Source: Burkholderia cepacia ATCC 25416 (GTDB lineage: Bacteria; Pseudomonadota; Gammaproteobacteria; Burkholderiales; Burkholderiaceae). From it: DNA of 64,000 bases. The notes beneath the pieces were generated by a model. That model saw only the letters and a program-made list of their open reading frames with translations, had not been told where the DNA came from and made no database searches. A program made the position numbers and the translations under genes. Numbering within the stretch: position 1 is the first letter of the stretch; every line of letters starts with the position of its first letter. Positions 49,427 through 53,848 of this stretch are shown here, piece by piece. Location: contig NZ_CP012983.1 of NCBI RefSeq assembly GCF_001411495.1, positions 248,001-312,000 of the forward strand, given 5' to 3'.

Positions 49427-49999
49427 ATGCTGACACGTCTTCGTATCGGACTCGATCGCGCGCGCGACCTGCGCGAAGCGGGACGACCGTCTCCCGTCCA
49501 CCCACGGCCGCAGGCGAGCGAACTGGTCGACCTCAGCGCGCAGCGCGCGATGTGGCGTGTCGCCGTTCCGGGCCAGGCCGACTGCTACATGGCGGCGACG
49601 CCCGCCGAAACGGAGCGCTACGTCGTGCATCTCGACGCGCAGACGTTCTACGGCCTGTGGCTCGGCACGAGCCCGAGATTCCCGCAGCCGAACTCGCAGG
49701 ACTGCGTGCCGCGCCGCGTCATGCCGCTCGACAGCAAGTACGCGTCGGCCGCCGCCGCGTTCCGGGCCGGCCGCCTCGAACCGGTGGCACTGCCGCCGGT
49801 CGGCTACTGGATCGAGGGAGGCGGGTACGAAGTCGCGATGAGCAATGGCATGACGCGCACCTTCTGGCTGCTCGCCAACCGCGTGCGGTCGTTTCCGGTC
49901 AGCGTCGACAACGCGACCTGGGCCACGATGCTGAACAACATGGCCGGTGTCGGCGTCGCGCCGATCGCGTACCGCGAACTGTTTTCCCGGCGCGCGTAG
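49427..49999 (+). CDS. Plasmid fertility inhibition factor (FiwA-like) family protein
   Basis: A 190-residue cytoplasmic protein. The pattern MWRVAVPGQADCYM, then TERYVVHLDAQTFYGLWL, then AMSNGMTRTFWLLANRVRSFPVSV matches my recollection of the plasmid fertility inhibition factor family, related to FiwA, which blocks conjugation of other plasmids. The link is by memory and moderate. GAGAGG is placed before the ATG. It lies directly before the retron candidate, so the two may form a small defence cluster. Confidence 0.6.
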   Translation: MLTRLRIGLDRARDLREAGRPSPVHPRPQASELVDLSAQRAMWRVAVPGQADCYMAATPAETERYVVHLDAQTFYGLWLGTSPRFPQPNSQDCVPRRVMPLDSKYASAAAAFRAGRLEPVALPPVGYWIEGGGYEVAMSNGMTRTFWLLANRVRSFPVSVDNATWATMLNNMAGVGVAPIAYRELFSRRA

Positions 50000-50038
50000 G
50001 TCGGTCGTCGCGATCCGGCCGCACCGGATCGCCCCGGT

Positions 50039-50066
50039 TTGACACGCCGCGTTCGCGGCCTTTAAA
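50039..50066 (+). promoter_or_regulatory. Sigma-70-type promoter before the retron RNA
   Basis: TTGACA, 16-bp spacer, TTTAAA (or 17 bp and TTAAAG). Transcription would begin near 50073-50076, just before the predicted msr-msd RNA. A perfect -35 box is rare in this window. Confidence 0.65.
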
Positions 50067-50080
50067 GTCGCATCGCGGGC

Positions 50081-50234
50081 CGGTGGGTCAAGCTCACGCC
50101 CGGAACAGGCAGCCGATGTTCCAGGACTACGGGGCTACCCCGTGGATCAGATCGACATCCCGATGCGTCGCAAGGAGCGCCGTTGCGCGTTGCGCAACGT
50201 GACTCCTCGCAATACCCGTCACGTTGGCTCATCG
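50081..50234 (+). ncRNA. Predicted retron msr-msd RNA
   Basis: Read from sequence: the left flank CGGTGGGTCAA (50081-50091) pairs with TTGGCTCATCG (50224-50234) over 11 contiguous bp (8 Watson-Crick, 3 G-U), like retron a1/a2. The next base, G50092 in AAGC, would be the branch guanosine, in the position seen in retrons such as Ec86. Two msr-type hairpins follow: GGAACA/TGTTCC (50102-50122) and ACGGGG-CTA-CCCCGT (50129-50143). Then comes an msd-type stem: AGGAG/CTCCT outside (50173-50177 with 50203-50207) and CGTTGCGC/GCGCAACG inside (50181-50199). The RT gene starts 19 bp later. Confidence 0.6.
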
Positions 50235-50252
50235 TCCCGCCCATCCTTTTCC

Positions 50253-51602
50253 ATGTCTTCATCCCTGCGCGATACCACCCGCACGATTGCCGAGGCGATG
50301 CTGGCCGGTGCGCCCGAACGTGCCGGCGTCCTGTCCCGGATGGCGGCGGTACTCGGCGGCGCGCCGCCGTGGACTCACGAAGTCGCGGACGCCGCGCTCG
50401 TGCGCTTCGGCGCGCGCTGGGCCGATGTCGACATCGATGCGCTTGCGGCGCACCTCGCCGATGCGCCGCCTTTCGTGCTCGCGTGGTACGGCAGCGATCG
50501 GCCCGCCGCGATCCGCGTCGTGCGGCGGCCGCTCGTCCAGCTGCCGTTGCCGGCGCCGCTGGCCGGCTGCGACGTGCCGCAATGGGCGACGCCCGGCGAT
50601 CTCGCCGACTGGCTCGGCGTGCGCGTGCCGGAACTCGACTGGCTGTCCGACCGTTGGCGCGTCGACGCGCGCAGCGGCGCCACGCCGTTGCATCACTACA
50701 CGTACGTGGCGCACGACAAGCGCAGCGGCGGGTGCCGACTGGTCGAGATCCCGAAGGGCCGGCTGCGCGAAGCGCAGCGCCGCATCCTGCACGGGCTGCT
50801 CGACCGCATCGCGCCGCACGGAGCGGTGCACGGTTTTCGCAAGGGGCACGGGATCGTGTCGTTCGCGGCGCCGCATGCCGATCGCGATGTCGTCGTCCGT
50901 TTCGACCTCGCGGATTTCTTCGTATCGATACGCGCCGCGCGCATTCACGCGCTGTTCGTCACGCTCGGATACCCGGCCGAAGTCGCGCGCACGCTTACCG
51001 GGCTGTGCACCAACCGCGTGCCGTCCGCGCGGCTGCTCGCACCGGACCTGCGCGACCGGTTCGACTGGATCGGCCGCCAGCGCTATCGAGAACGGCATCT
51101 GCCGCAGGGGGCGCCGACGTCGCCGGCGCTGGCGAACCTGAGCGCCTTCCGGTTCGACATGCGGCTCGCCGCGCTCGCGCGTTCGCTCGATGCAACCTAC
51201 ACGCGTTACGCCGACGATCTCGCATTTTCCGGCGGCGGCGCGCTGGCGCGCGACGTCGAGCGGTTGCAGGTGCGCGTTGCCGCGATCGCGCTCGAGGAGG
51301 GCTTTGCGCTGCACCTGCGCAAGACGCGCGTGATGCGGCGCGGCATGCGCCAGCAACTCGCCGGCGTGGTCGTCAATCGTCATCCGAACCTGGCGCGCGA
51401 TGAGTTCGATCTCCTGAAGGCCATCCTGACCAACTGCATCCGGAGCGGGCCGGCGGCGCAGAATCGCGATGCGCGTCCGGACTTCCGCGCGCATCTCGCC
51501 GGGCGCGTCGCGCATGCGGCCGCGCTGAACGCGGCGCGCGGCGCGAAGCTGCGCGCGCTGTTCGACAGGATCGCGTGGGACGCCTGCGACGTCGGTCTGT
51601 AA
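50253..51602 (+). CDS. Retron-type reverse transcriptase with N-terminal extension
   Basis: A 449-residue RT. The catalytic aspartates are intact: RFDLADFF (Asp218) and RYADDLAFSG (Asp321, Asp322). LPQGAPTSPALAN (283-295) is the standard motif. FAAPH (204-208) resembles the retron NAxxH motif, and QLAGVVVN (368-375) matches the retron VTG-type segment. The first 140 residues are an extension without a domain I recognise; myxobacterial retron RTs also carry an N-terminal extension. No maturase or endonuclease domain is present, so it is not a group II intron enzyme. A longer in-frame start at 50142 would overlap the predicted RNA, so the ATG here is preferred. The effector is not obvious. Confidence 0.88.
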   Translation: MSSSLRDTTRTIAEAMLAGAPERAGVLSRMAAVLGGAPPWTHEVADAALVRFGARWADVDIDALAAHLADAPPFVLAWYGSDRPAAIRVVRRPLVQLPLPAPLAGCDVPQWATPGDLADWLGVRVPELDWLSDRWRVDARSGATPLHHYTYVAHDKRSGGCRLVEIPKGRLREAQRRILHGLLDRIAPHGAVHGFRKGHGIVSFAAPHADRDVVVRFDLADFFVSIRAARIHALFVTLGYPAEVARTLTGLCTNRVPSARLLAPDLRDRFDWIGRQRYRERHLPQGAPTSPALANLSAFRFDMRLAALARSLDATYTRYADDLAFSGGGALARDVERLQVRVAAIALEEGFALHLRKTRVMRRGMRQQLAGVVVNRHPNLARDEFDLLKAILTNCIRSGPAAQNRDARPDFRAHLAGRVAHAAALNAARGAKLRALFDRIAWDACDVGL

Positions 51603-51639
51603 GCGGCCGAAAAGCGATCGACGAGCGGCCGAAAAGCGA
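51602..51639 (+). repeat. 16-bp direct repeat directly behind the RT stop
   Basis: AGCGGCCGAAAAGCGA occurs at 51602-51617 and 51624-51639 (22-bp period), and a third partial unit CAAAAAGCGA follows at 51641. The first copy begins on the last base of the stop codon. No function known. Confidence 0.85.
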
Positions 51640-51973
51640 CCAAAAAGCGACCGGGTCCGGATCGACGCCGGCCGACGACTTCTGCATCGCGATGCCGCGC
51701 ACTGCTATCATTCGCGCCATGCCGCGCCAGTGCCTGGTGCGGCGCCTACTTGCCGCAGTCGTTCGCCCGTGCCTTCGTATGCGGCGGGCTGCGCGTTGCC
51801 GGGCCGGTTCAGTCTGTCATCGATTGACGCGCGACGTCGTTTAGTGCGTATCGCGCAAGCCACGCCGGCTCAGGCAAACGATACATACATTTGACAGCAC
51901 CCATCGGCGGAACTTCGTGGTAGGTTCCGCCATCGGAGCTTTTTGCGAAAACATGCCCAAAGAGGATGAATAC
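51603..51973. other. Gap between the RT gene and the H-NS-like gene
   Basis: About 370 bp. Apart from the direct repeat and the H-NS promoter/hairpin there is no gene I can support; short frames on both strands are arginine/alanine-rich shadows. Confidence 0.55.
51891..51931 (+). promoter_or_regulatory. -35 box and hairpin or operator in the H-NS gene leader
   Basis: TTGACA at 51891-51896 is followed by a perfect 8-bp inverted repeat (GGCGGAAC at 51906-51913 with GTTCCGCC at 51924-51931). The -10 box is unclear. The dyad could be an operator or an RNA hairpin before the start codon. Confidence 0.4.
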
Positions 51974-52303
51974 ATGACCCAGGCCCTGCAGGAACTCGAA
52001 GCACAACTTCGGGACCTGAATATCAAGCTGTCGGATGCGAAGCAGAAGGAGAAGCAGGCCGCGCTCGCGGCATTCAAGGAACAGGTCGAGCTTTTGGGAA
52101 TTTCGCAGCAGGAAGTGCTGAGCGCGCTCGGTTATATCGTCCAGCGAAAACGCAAGGCGCCTGCCAAGTACTACGATCCGACGACCGGCCGCTCATGGTC
52201 GGGCCGCGGCCCGCGGCCGAAATGGCTCGAAGGCAAGGATCTCGACACGCTCGCCGTCGACCGCGAGGCCAAGACCTGGTGGCCCGGCGACGACCAGGGC
52301 TGA
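51974..52303 (+). CDS. H-NS family nucleoid protein
   Basis: A 109-residue H-NS-like protein. The coiled-coil N-terminus (ALQELEAQLRDLNIKLSDA) mediates oligomerisation. The C-terminal DNA-binding segment is TTGRSWSGRGPRPKWLEGKD, with the WSGRGPRPKWL motif of Burkholderia/Ralstonia H-NS proteins. GAGGA lies before this ATG; an ATG seven codons upstream is also possible. H-NS proteins silence AT-rich acquired DNA, and such a block lies 3 kb upstream. Confidence 0.88.
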   Translation: MTQALQELEAQLRDLNIKLSDAKQKEKQAALAAFKEQVELLGISQQEVLSALGYIVQRKRKAPAKYYDPTTGRSWSGRGPRPKWLEGKDLDTLAVDREAKTWWPGDDQG

Positions 52304-52600: not shown

Positions 52601-53848
52601 ATGGCAGCAAACATGAAATCTCCGACGCTCGGCGGCCCGTCGGCCCCGCGCGTCGAGCAGGTCGGCGCATACGCGTGGAAAGCGCTGGCCGGATCGGCGA
52701 TCGGCTATGCGATGGACGGCTTCGACCTGCTGATCCTCGGCTTCATGCTGCCGGCGATCACGGCGGCGCTGCACCTGACACCCGGGCAGGGCGGCGCGCT
52801 CGTCACCTGGACGCTGATCGGCGCCGTCGCGGGCGGCATCCTGTTCGGTGCGCTGAGCGACCGCTACGGGCGCGTGCGCGTGCTGACCTGGACGATCCTG
52901 CTGTTCGCGGTCTTCACCGGGCTGTGTGCGTTCGCACAGGGCTTCCGGGATCTGCTCGTCTACCGCACCATCGCGGGCATCGGGCTGGGCGGTGAGTTCG
53001 GGATCGGCATGGCGCTCGCGGCGGAAGCGTGGCCGGCCAGCAAACGCGCGCGCGTATCGTGCTACGTCGCGCTCGGCTGGCAGGCCGGCGTGCTGCTGGC
53101 CGCCCTGCTGACGCCGTTCCTGCTGCTGCACATCGGCTGGCGCGGGATGTTCCTGGTCGGCGTGCTGCCCGCACTGCTCGCGTGGGCGATGCGCAACAAG
53201 CTGCACGAGCCGGAGGCGTTCGTGCAGCGCGCGGCGCAGCCGAAGGCCAACGCGTTCCGCCTGCTCGTCGCGGACGGCCGCACCGCGCGCACGAGCCTCG
53301 GCATCGTGATCCTGTGTTCGGTCCAGAACTTCGGCTACTACGGGATCATGATCTGGCTGCCGACCTTCCTGTCGAAACAGATGGGTTTCTCGCTGACGAA
53401 GTCGGGGGTGTGGACGGCGGTGACGGTCGTCGGGATGATGATCGGCGTCTGGGTGTTCGGGCAGCTGGCCGACCGCATCGGGCGCAAGCCGACGTTCCTG
53501 CTGTACCAGCTCGGCGCGGTGGCGACGGTCATCGCGTATGCGCGGCTGTCGGACCCGACGGCGATGCTGTGGGCCGGCGCGCTGATGGGCATGTTCGTCA
53601 ACGGGATGGTCGGTGGCTACGGGACGCTGATGTCGGAGGGTTATCCGACGGCCGCACGCGCAACCGCGCAGAACGTGCTGTGGAACATCGGCCGCGCGGT
53701 GGGCGGCTTCGGCCCGGTCGCGGTCGGCGCGCTTGCCGCGCACTATTCGTTCCAGACGGCCATCGCCATGCTCGCCGGCCTCTACGTGCTCGACATGGTC
53801 GCGACGCTGTTTCTGATTCCCGAGCTCAAGGGCGTCGAGCTCGAATGA
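52601..53848 (+). CDS. MFS transporter, aromatic acid:H+ symporter (AAHS)-like
   Basis: A 415-residue permease with twelve helices. The first helix GYAMDGFDLLILGFMLPAITAAL and the loop GALSDRYGRVRVL have the D-G-(F/Y)-D and DRxGR motifs of the AAHS/sialate-type branch. YRTIAGIGLGGEFGIGMALAAEA is typical for helix 4-5. It likely imports an aromatic or other carboxylic acid. The next gene overlaps its stop by four bases, indicating translational coupling. Confidence 0.9.
   Translation: MAANMKSPTLGGPSAPRVEQVGAYAWKALAGSAIGYAMDGFDLLILGFMLPAITAALHLTPGQGGALVTWTLIGAVAGGILFGALSDRYGRVRVLTWTILLFAVFTGLCAFAQGFRDLLVYRTIAGIGLGGEFGIGMALAAEAWPASKRARVSCYVALGWQAGVLLAALLTPFLLLHIGWRGMFLVGVLPALLAWAMRNKLHEPEAFVQRAAQPKANAFRLLVADGRTARTSLGIVILCSVQNFGYYGIMIWLPTFLSKQMGFSLTKSGVWTAVTVVGMMIGVWVFGQLADRIGRKPTFLLYQLGAVATVIAYARLSDPTAMLWAGALMGMFVNGMVGGYGTLMSEGYPTAARATAQNVLWNIGRAVGGFGPVAVGALAAHYSFQTAIAMLAGLYVLDMVATLFLIPELKGVELE

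Follow-up and report, generated by a model that had tools for sequence, protein, structure and literature searches.

A probable two-part retron with an unnamed N-terminal helical domain on its reverse transcriptase in Burkholderia cepacia ATCC 25416

The third contig of the 8.6 Mb genome of Burkholderia cepacia ATCC 25416 harbors a locus that almost certainly represents a retron, in which a non-coding RNA (ncRNA) of retron anatomy is followed by, and judging from sequence comparison co-inherited with, a retron-type reverse transcriptase (RT). We consider it probable that this is a two-part ('solo') retron operating through the mechanistic steps outlined below, and most likely a single-protein retron whose N-terminal domain serves as an accessory or output module. 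All plain coordinates refer to the window, the whole stretch of 64,000 nt analyzed, and residues are counted from the ATG at 50253. The features of the locus are as follows:

50039..50068 (+): sigma-70-like promoter (TTGACA, 18 nt, TAAAGT) driving the ncRNA-RT unit
50075..50240 (+): retron ncRNA (msr-msd), a1 to a2, 166 nt (covariation in 50 sequences; fold z -3.33; covariance model R1)
50075..50091 (+): a1, forming the 5′ side of the end stem (alignment A2 columns 13-29; helix 1, 99.0% of cells paired)
50092 (+): predicted branch guanosine (AGC), directly 3′ of a1 (CAAGC in 50/50 leaders)
50099..50125 (+): msr hairpin 1, GGAAC/GUUCC (helix 2; 95.6% of cells paired)
50127..50145 (+): msr hairpin 2, CUACGGGG-CUA-CCCCGUGG (helix 3; 100% of cells paired)
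50146..50223 (+): putative msd template (from its position between msr hairpin 2 and a2)
50167..50213 (+): msd hairpin (helices 4 and 5; 96.9% and 99.7% of cells paired)
50224..50240 (+): a2, forming the 3′ side of the end stem (alignment A2 columns 166-182; helix 1)
50253..51602 (+): retron-type RT, 449 amino acids (profile searches, structure model, tree)
50253..50588 (+): N-terminal extension, predicted to comprise a domain of five helices (residues 1-80) and an extended, basic linker (residues 80-112) (AlphaFold2)
50688..51587 (+): RT core, residues 146-445 (FAAPH 204-208, D218, YADD 319-322, LAGVVVN 369-375)

The only Pfam match of the 449 amino acid protein is RVT_1 (residues 156-362). 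Its top PADLOC profiles are RT_other (PDLC02949; Bitscore: 475.8; residues 6-444) and RT_outgroup (PDLC03740; Bitscore: 450.8), followed by RT_XIII (Bitscore: 299.6), which covers residues 104-440 only, and the NCBIfam retron models hit it below their cut-offs (retron St85: 148 vs 235 bits). In a PDB sequence search, each of the fourteen matches at E ≤0.01 is identified by its name or entry title as a retron RT, and the top 18 Foldseek matches of the RT model are likewise retron RTs, with Ec86 first. In retron RTs, region X carries the letters NAxxH and region Y the letters VTG. Both motifs are present in the window RT, as FAAPH and LAG respectively, and an alignment (A3) of 141 RT homologues shows no variation at H208, D218, Y319, D321, D322 or N375, with G371 conserved in 99%, while the residue preceding G371 is an alanine in the window RT and a threonine in 62% of the sequences. 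Regions X and Y are named as retron RT regions in part of PMC6868368. The alignment drew on 62 non-redundant sequences of at least 425 amino acids among the first 120 homologues, 46 of which were hand-picked, and on 115 of 425-500 amino acids among the second 120, 94 of which entered; the eight closest homologues are named Burkholderia cepacia and share 97-98% identity. The open reading frame, coordinates and motifs given in the original prediction, which had named Asp218, Asp321 and Asp322 as intact catalytic residues, were correct.

Phylogenetic placement, put forward in that prediction as a check and a possible refutation, does not refute it and locates the RT within the retrons by both profile and clade. 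In a maximum-likelihood tree of 34 RT cores, which contains several long branches and leaves the relations between clades unresolved, the window RT, its catalytic aspartates intact, groups with eleven RT_other rows in a retron clade (support: 100/96) and the six type XIII RTs form a clade of their own (support: 98/96), with the proviso that all labels except that of L003 are PADLOC best matches and PADLOC rests on earlier classifications, so that label and tree are not fully independent. Two rows of the tree, L002 and L003, are non-retron RTs encoded on contig 1 of the same genome in two near-identical 479 amino acid frames with RVT_1, perhaps group II intron-like RTs, the former matching no PADLOC family. 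Further retron RTs, with best PADLOC matches to types II, III, V, VI and IX, are found in other Burkholderia genomes (L089-L097).

A hairpin-rich leader had been proposed upstream of the RT gene, and the leader is indeed more structured than chance would allow. The 50075-50240 region folds with a z-score of -3.33 against shuffles, and 44 of 50 leaders have z-scores below -2 (median: -2.51; 30 shuffles each). The aligned set of 50 leaders, all distinct, covers Burkholderia together with further genera from the same family, L053 (contig end) and L074 (start anchor failed) having been left out. The RNAalifold consensus contains 45 pairs in five helices, which make up an end stem, two msr hairpins and a two-part msd hairpin. 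In the consensus 98.4% of 2247 cells are paired, as opposed to 94.9 ± 0.2% in shuffles, none of 500 of which reached as high a value. Covariation of the leader, the lack of which would have counted as refutation in the original prediction, is evident from 15 pairs with changes on both sides, where 6.1 are expected and 0/500 shuffles match, and from a covariation score of 0.151 (shuffled: 0.086 ± 0.004). When the pairing partners are slid, pairing falls to 39.5-44.5% of cells, although both the shuffle and the slide controls flatter the structure, which was itself derived from these same, related sequences.

The covariance model R1 provides an independent test, as it was run on loci outside its training set. 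It recovers the RNA at L074 (Bitscore: 165.5), L099-L102 (Bitscores: 128-156) and L078 (Bitscore: 50.6; e-value: 1.8e-13), where the adjoining RT is about 40% identical, and also at L105 on an actinobacterial (Dietzia) plasmid (Bitscore: 28.2; e-value: 1.2e-6), all of them loci on which it was not trained. Five of the eleven inner positions of the 5′ end-stem arm of L078 differ from the consensus and all eleven are still paired, the single flagged mismatch of this stem lying in its outer part. R1 detects no ncRNA adjoining the Tsukamurella RT of the same clade (L103), nor a like ncRNA adjoining the six type XIII RTs (L080-L084 and L104).

Upstream of the RNA, the perfect TTGACA noted in the original prediction is identical in all 41 distinct Burkholderia leaders and, with the TAAAGT located 18 nt downstream, forms the sole promoter-like site found in 49900-52000 (0.2 expected), from which transcription would start at about 50074. 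The arrangement of the RNA ahead of the RT is likewise that of a retron: the 16 pairs of the a1/a2 end stem, four of which show changes on both sides, enclose the msr and msd upstream of the retron-clade RT. Position 50080, however, is unpaired in the consensus and forms a C-U mismatch in the window's own end stem, which counts against the retron reading. The CAA of the CAAGC motif closes the a1 arm, and the motif is conserved in all 50 leaders as well as in L078, while it is altered in L105, the most distant ncRNA. By analogy with the AGC rule for the branch guanosine of retrons, as given in part of PMC6868368, G50092 is the predicted branch point. The msd hairpin shows changes on both sides at 6/15 pairs, and the msd template, folded as DNA, has a z-score of -2.10; the copied DNA would be at most about 78 nt.

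Two other readings of the leader can be weighed against this RNA. It is very improbable that it constitutes a mere 5′ untranslated region, or a segment of a longer coding frame, ahead of a retron-like RT that makes no msDNA. An open frame does run across the leader in most Burkholderia (519 amino acids in most full-length rows), which this reading would explain, but it is interrupted by stops in five of the 41 distinct leaders and by frame-changing spacings, the leader shows compensatory base-pair changes, and the same RNA adjoins distant RTs. For the same reason the in-frame GTG at 50142, which lies inside the ncRNA, was rejected as a start codon, an in-frame stop occurring there in 5/41 distinct Burkholderia leaders, or 7/63 loci when duplicates are counted. 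As the distance from the ncRNA to the ATG also changes frame between leaders, the RT is most likely translated from the ATG at 50253. There is even less to recommend the radC-motif RNA (RF01754), which matches 50065-50205 over its full model but scores 22.1 bits, below its gathering score of 40; a search of L074, L078 and L105 against Rfam yielded nothing at E ≤0.5, and no Rfam family reaches threshold for the leader RNA. We regard this second identity as highly implausible.

The protein extends well beyond the RT core at its N-terminus. The original prediction set this extension at the first 140 residues and found no domain known to it. The extension matches no named domain in sequence searches (residues 1-145) and no solved fold with confidence, yet it is spanned by the PADLOC RT_other and RT_outgroup models, and its boundary requires revision. 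In a profile comparison, residues 1-112 show no detectable similarity to six type XIII extensions (e-value: 0.88), and with residues 113-140 added the match is weak (e-value: 0.00085; probability: 9.6%), its convincing part being residues 113-140. The extension proper comprises residues 1 to about 112, and the helices at 114-131 resemble type XIII retron RTs.

Structure prediction of the extension, likewise proposed at the outset, resolves it into a five-helix domain and a linker. The AlphaFold2 model of the whole protein has a mean pLDDT of 93.3, mostly above 90 in the extension, with helices at 5-16, 23-34, 39-58, 61-70 and 72-78, followed by the extended linker, two further helices (114-121 and 125-131) and the RT; modelled alone, the extension gives the same helices (mean pLDDT: 81.7). 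The predicted pI rises from an acidic 5.0 in residues 1-80 to a basic 10.2 in the linker and a strongly basic 11.1 in the RT core. The residues conserved in at least 70% of sequences in 1-80 (A13, A15, L17, G19, R29, L34, G35, W40, L44, which is V here, F52, L64, I68, which is L here, F74 and W78) look structural, that is, more core-like than active-site-like, and the 141-sequence alignment reveals no catalytic-looking conserved residues among residues 1-80. Across 39 ungapped Burkholderia sequences (L065 was skipped owing to a length change), differences from the window at codon positions 1/2/3 are 0.146, 0.143 and 0.235 within residues 1-145 as against 0.061, 0.039 and 0.211 thereafter.

A search for the N-terminal domain in 19 genomes gave matches in 13, all at the RT locus. 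At L074 (genome G258), the RT begins at an ATG that corresponds roughly to residue 93 of the window RT, 4 nt past the modelled ncRNA end (4064, minus strand), and the helical domain is absent, while the ncRNA and RT motifs are intact, making this a natural domain-deletion variant; the listed start of P0076 resembles that of L074. As L074 persists without it, the N-terminal domain is not strictly required for the ncRNA-RT pair to be maintained.

No effector gene could be identified at the locus, in agreement with the original prediction, which had seen no toxin gene of a recognized type next to it: no neighbor recurs across contexts within flanks of 3 kb (divergent loci) to 5 kb. Of the two features by which the tripartite anti-phage types I-XIII are defined, an associated effector gene is thus absent within those flanks, and a named fused effector domain is absent from residues 1-145. 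Among 23 named loci with flanks of up to 5 kb, H-NS is found downstream in 22, MFS in 21 and an upstream PFIN gene in 14, whereas fifteen other loci (L061 and L064-L077; flanks of 3 kb or less) have none of these neighbors. Clustering of the flanking frames of 27 loci shows that nothing but the RT unit links the Burkholderia loci with those of the ubonensis-like and other-genus contexts, clusters otherwise falling within such groups, within the type XIII loci (L080-L082), and once between L040 and L068, far from the RT.

The H-NS (51974-52303) and MFS (52601-53848) genes were rejected as partners, as they stay where the retron is lost and are absent from the fifteen other-context loci. The gene at 49427-49999, just upstream on the same strand, encodes a PFIN-domain (plasmid fertility inhibition) protein and is species-variable and missing from several species. 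As an effector it was likewise rejected, occurring in 14/23 named loci (58-95% identity; among the nine without it, L053 is truncated by the end of its contig) and being missing from all fifteen with other neighbors.

Full-length ncRNA is detected by R1, with stricter filters in the genus-wide scan, in 43 of 65 Burkholderia genomes, which are exactly the 43 with the long or two-piece RT matches described below, each copy within 25 nt of the RT match, and no full-length solo ncRNA copy was found in the 65. The 14 other R1 matches are short (22-30 bits); eleven hit the same msd hairpin on its opposite strand and three lie elsewhere. The RT search gives matches (E ≤0.001) in 47/65 genus genomes, some of which have only other retron types; 42 contain a single match of about 430 residues or more, with an internal TGA in G044, and in G057 the RT lies in two pieces on two contigs. 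Beyond the genus, 55 of 398 genomes in a draw from the family match at E 1e-40, in 4/25 genera, and 7/274 genomes of a class-level draw, the window's included, match RT_outgroup at E 1e-60, five of these (L080-L084) being type XIII by best profile and L078 RT_other.

Decayed or broken copies (loci L098, L118, L101 and L102) can also be observed. The 5′-truncated copy of G047 starts near residue 115, is preceded by unrelated sequence and lacks the ncRNA; G058 has an internal deletion that leaves only pieces matching residues 1-44 and 348-442, its ncRNA lost; and in G152 and G215 the RT is split over two frames and the ncRNA retained. Eleven genus genomes contain MFS but no full RT, of which eight were examined, namely G058 and seven RT-less genomes that keep H-NS, MFS and a short segment lying some 100 nt beyond the RT end. 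Among the latter, L111 retains 57 nt that match the RT 3′ end at 82%, and L113 part of PFIN. In our judgement, rather than by formal reconciliation, the locus appears to have been inherited vertically, with sporadic loss. A recent arrival as cargo of a phage or plasmid was considered and rejected: no DNA match to the locus was found among 50,697 phage records, RT protein matches occur in six of them but never reach 60% identity or 80% coverage, and at least 80% coverage is reached in only three of 23 matching PLSDB records, all Burkholderia (0.88-1.26 Mb). Two named records place the locus on chromosome 3, and in the three PLSDB records DNA of this replicon size is classed as plasmid.

Comparison with known systems shows both likeness and difference. 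Type XIII retrons (L080-L084 and L104 by PADLOC), to which Mx162 presumably belongs, resemble the window RT in their long N-terminal extension and in the stretch past residue 112, but they fall into a separate clade, the window RT scores far lower against RT_XIII than against RT_other, and its residues 1-112 show no detectable similarity to their extensions. In the single-gene retrons I-C, XI and XII, one protein accompanies the ncRNA, as here. Their fused domains are C-terminal and of named folds, whereas the extra domain of the window RT is N-terminal and unnamed. Ec86 (Eco1, type II) is the closest solved RT fold (7v9x chain A; Foldseek e-value: 1.1e-18; TM to target: 0.82) at 22% identity; it was solved with a separate effector according to the entry title, while none is found at the window locus, and its deposited chain of 320-349 residues is too short for an N-terminal domain of the window type. 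A long N-terminal extension is reported for myxobacterial retron RTs in part of PMC6868368.

The window RT shares its best profiles and its clade with PADLOC RT_other and RT_outgroup, whose output gives no type number, effector or ncRNA. The RT class is already catalogued, though uncharacterised and without a type number; the ncRNA is newly described here. A literature search of titles and abstract starts, outside which the main classification paper lies, yielded no description of this RT-ncRNA pair.

Several type XIII loci merit note in their own right. The type XIII-scoring RTs of L080, L082 and L083 are about 600 amino acids long, with both N- and C-terminal extensions, the latter ending, by eye, in one hydrophobic, membrane-helix-like stretch, and possibly represent RT-fused membrane effectors. 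A similar neighboring frame (L080 3420-4166, L081 1-1194, L082 3223-4119) is a candidate partner or just local synteny. Furthermore, Methylobacterium bullatum encodes a 641 amino acid frame (L104 1961-3883) that matches RT_XIII over residues 44-512 and contains extra sequence past the RT.

Drawing on retron biochemistry, we suggest that a single transcript would arise from the promoter at 50039, and that the RT would bind the msr and prime 2′-5′ from the 2′-OH of G50092, with copying of the RNA that begins near 50223 and proceeds back to msr hairpin 2. The resulting branched msDNA would carry a hairpin DNA no longer than about 78 nt and remain in complex with the RT. More speculatively, given that a separate effector gene has not been retained, the five-helix domain, carried on a basic linker, may represent an output or partner-binding module, on which a host or phage protein docks or which acts when the msDNA is disturbed.

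What such a complex does may be viewed in other ways. The msDNA-RT complex may serve a chromosomal or regulatory role rather than phage defence, as could the myxobacterial retrons, which part of PMC6868368 reports to be vertically inherited. We regard this as possible, if short of an even chance. The presence of the locus in 43/65 genus genomes, mostly at one syntenic site (H-NS in 22/23 and MFS in 21/23 named loci), is unlike the usual island-like pattern of defence systems, and the lack of an effector gene in the flanks, the scarcity of phage matches, the relics left where the locus is lost and a 2019 review that rates the functional role of retrons as poorly understood point in the same direction. 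Loss is frequent, however, with 22/65 genomes lacking the ncRNA, the faster change of residues 1-145 at codon positions 1 and 2 fits an interaction under conflict, and the chromosome 3 and plasmid-listed records indicate that the locus may sit on a less essential replicon. It is rather unlikely that the N-terminal domain is itself the toxic effector of a defence retron, held inactive by the msDNA. PADLOC does include single-gene fused-effector retrons (RT-Toprim I-C, RT-Protease XI and RT-TIR XII), and neither a separate effector gene nor the domain elsewhere in the 19 genomes was found, but the missing catalytic-looking residues and confident fold match, as well as the domain-less L074 with its ncRNA and motif-intact RT, argue against this.

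The single-protein retron with an accessory or output module remains the most likely reading. A broader proposal, that the orphan helical domain replaces the effector in a lineage spanning Actinomycetota to Pseudomonadota and that the system has been domesticated in Burkholderia, its msDNA having a role beyond mobile phage defence, is offered tentatively and with some doubt. Some retrons without a clear effector-gene association are described, in part of PMC8867640, as maybe recruited for other functions. The role of such effector-less retrons becomes a directly testable question here, in a compact system with a defined RNA that is apparently kept by descent and for which natural variants, intact, without the N-terminal domain, decayed and lost, exist in or near one genus. 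If msDNA is made, an RT and ncRNA native to the high-GC Burkholderiales may furthermore be useful for genome editing in these organisms.
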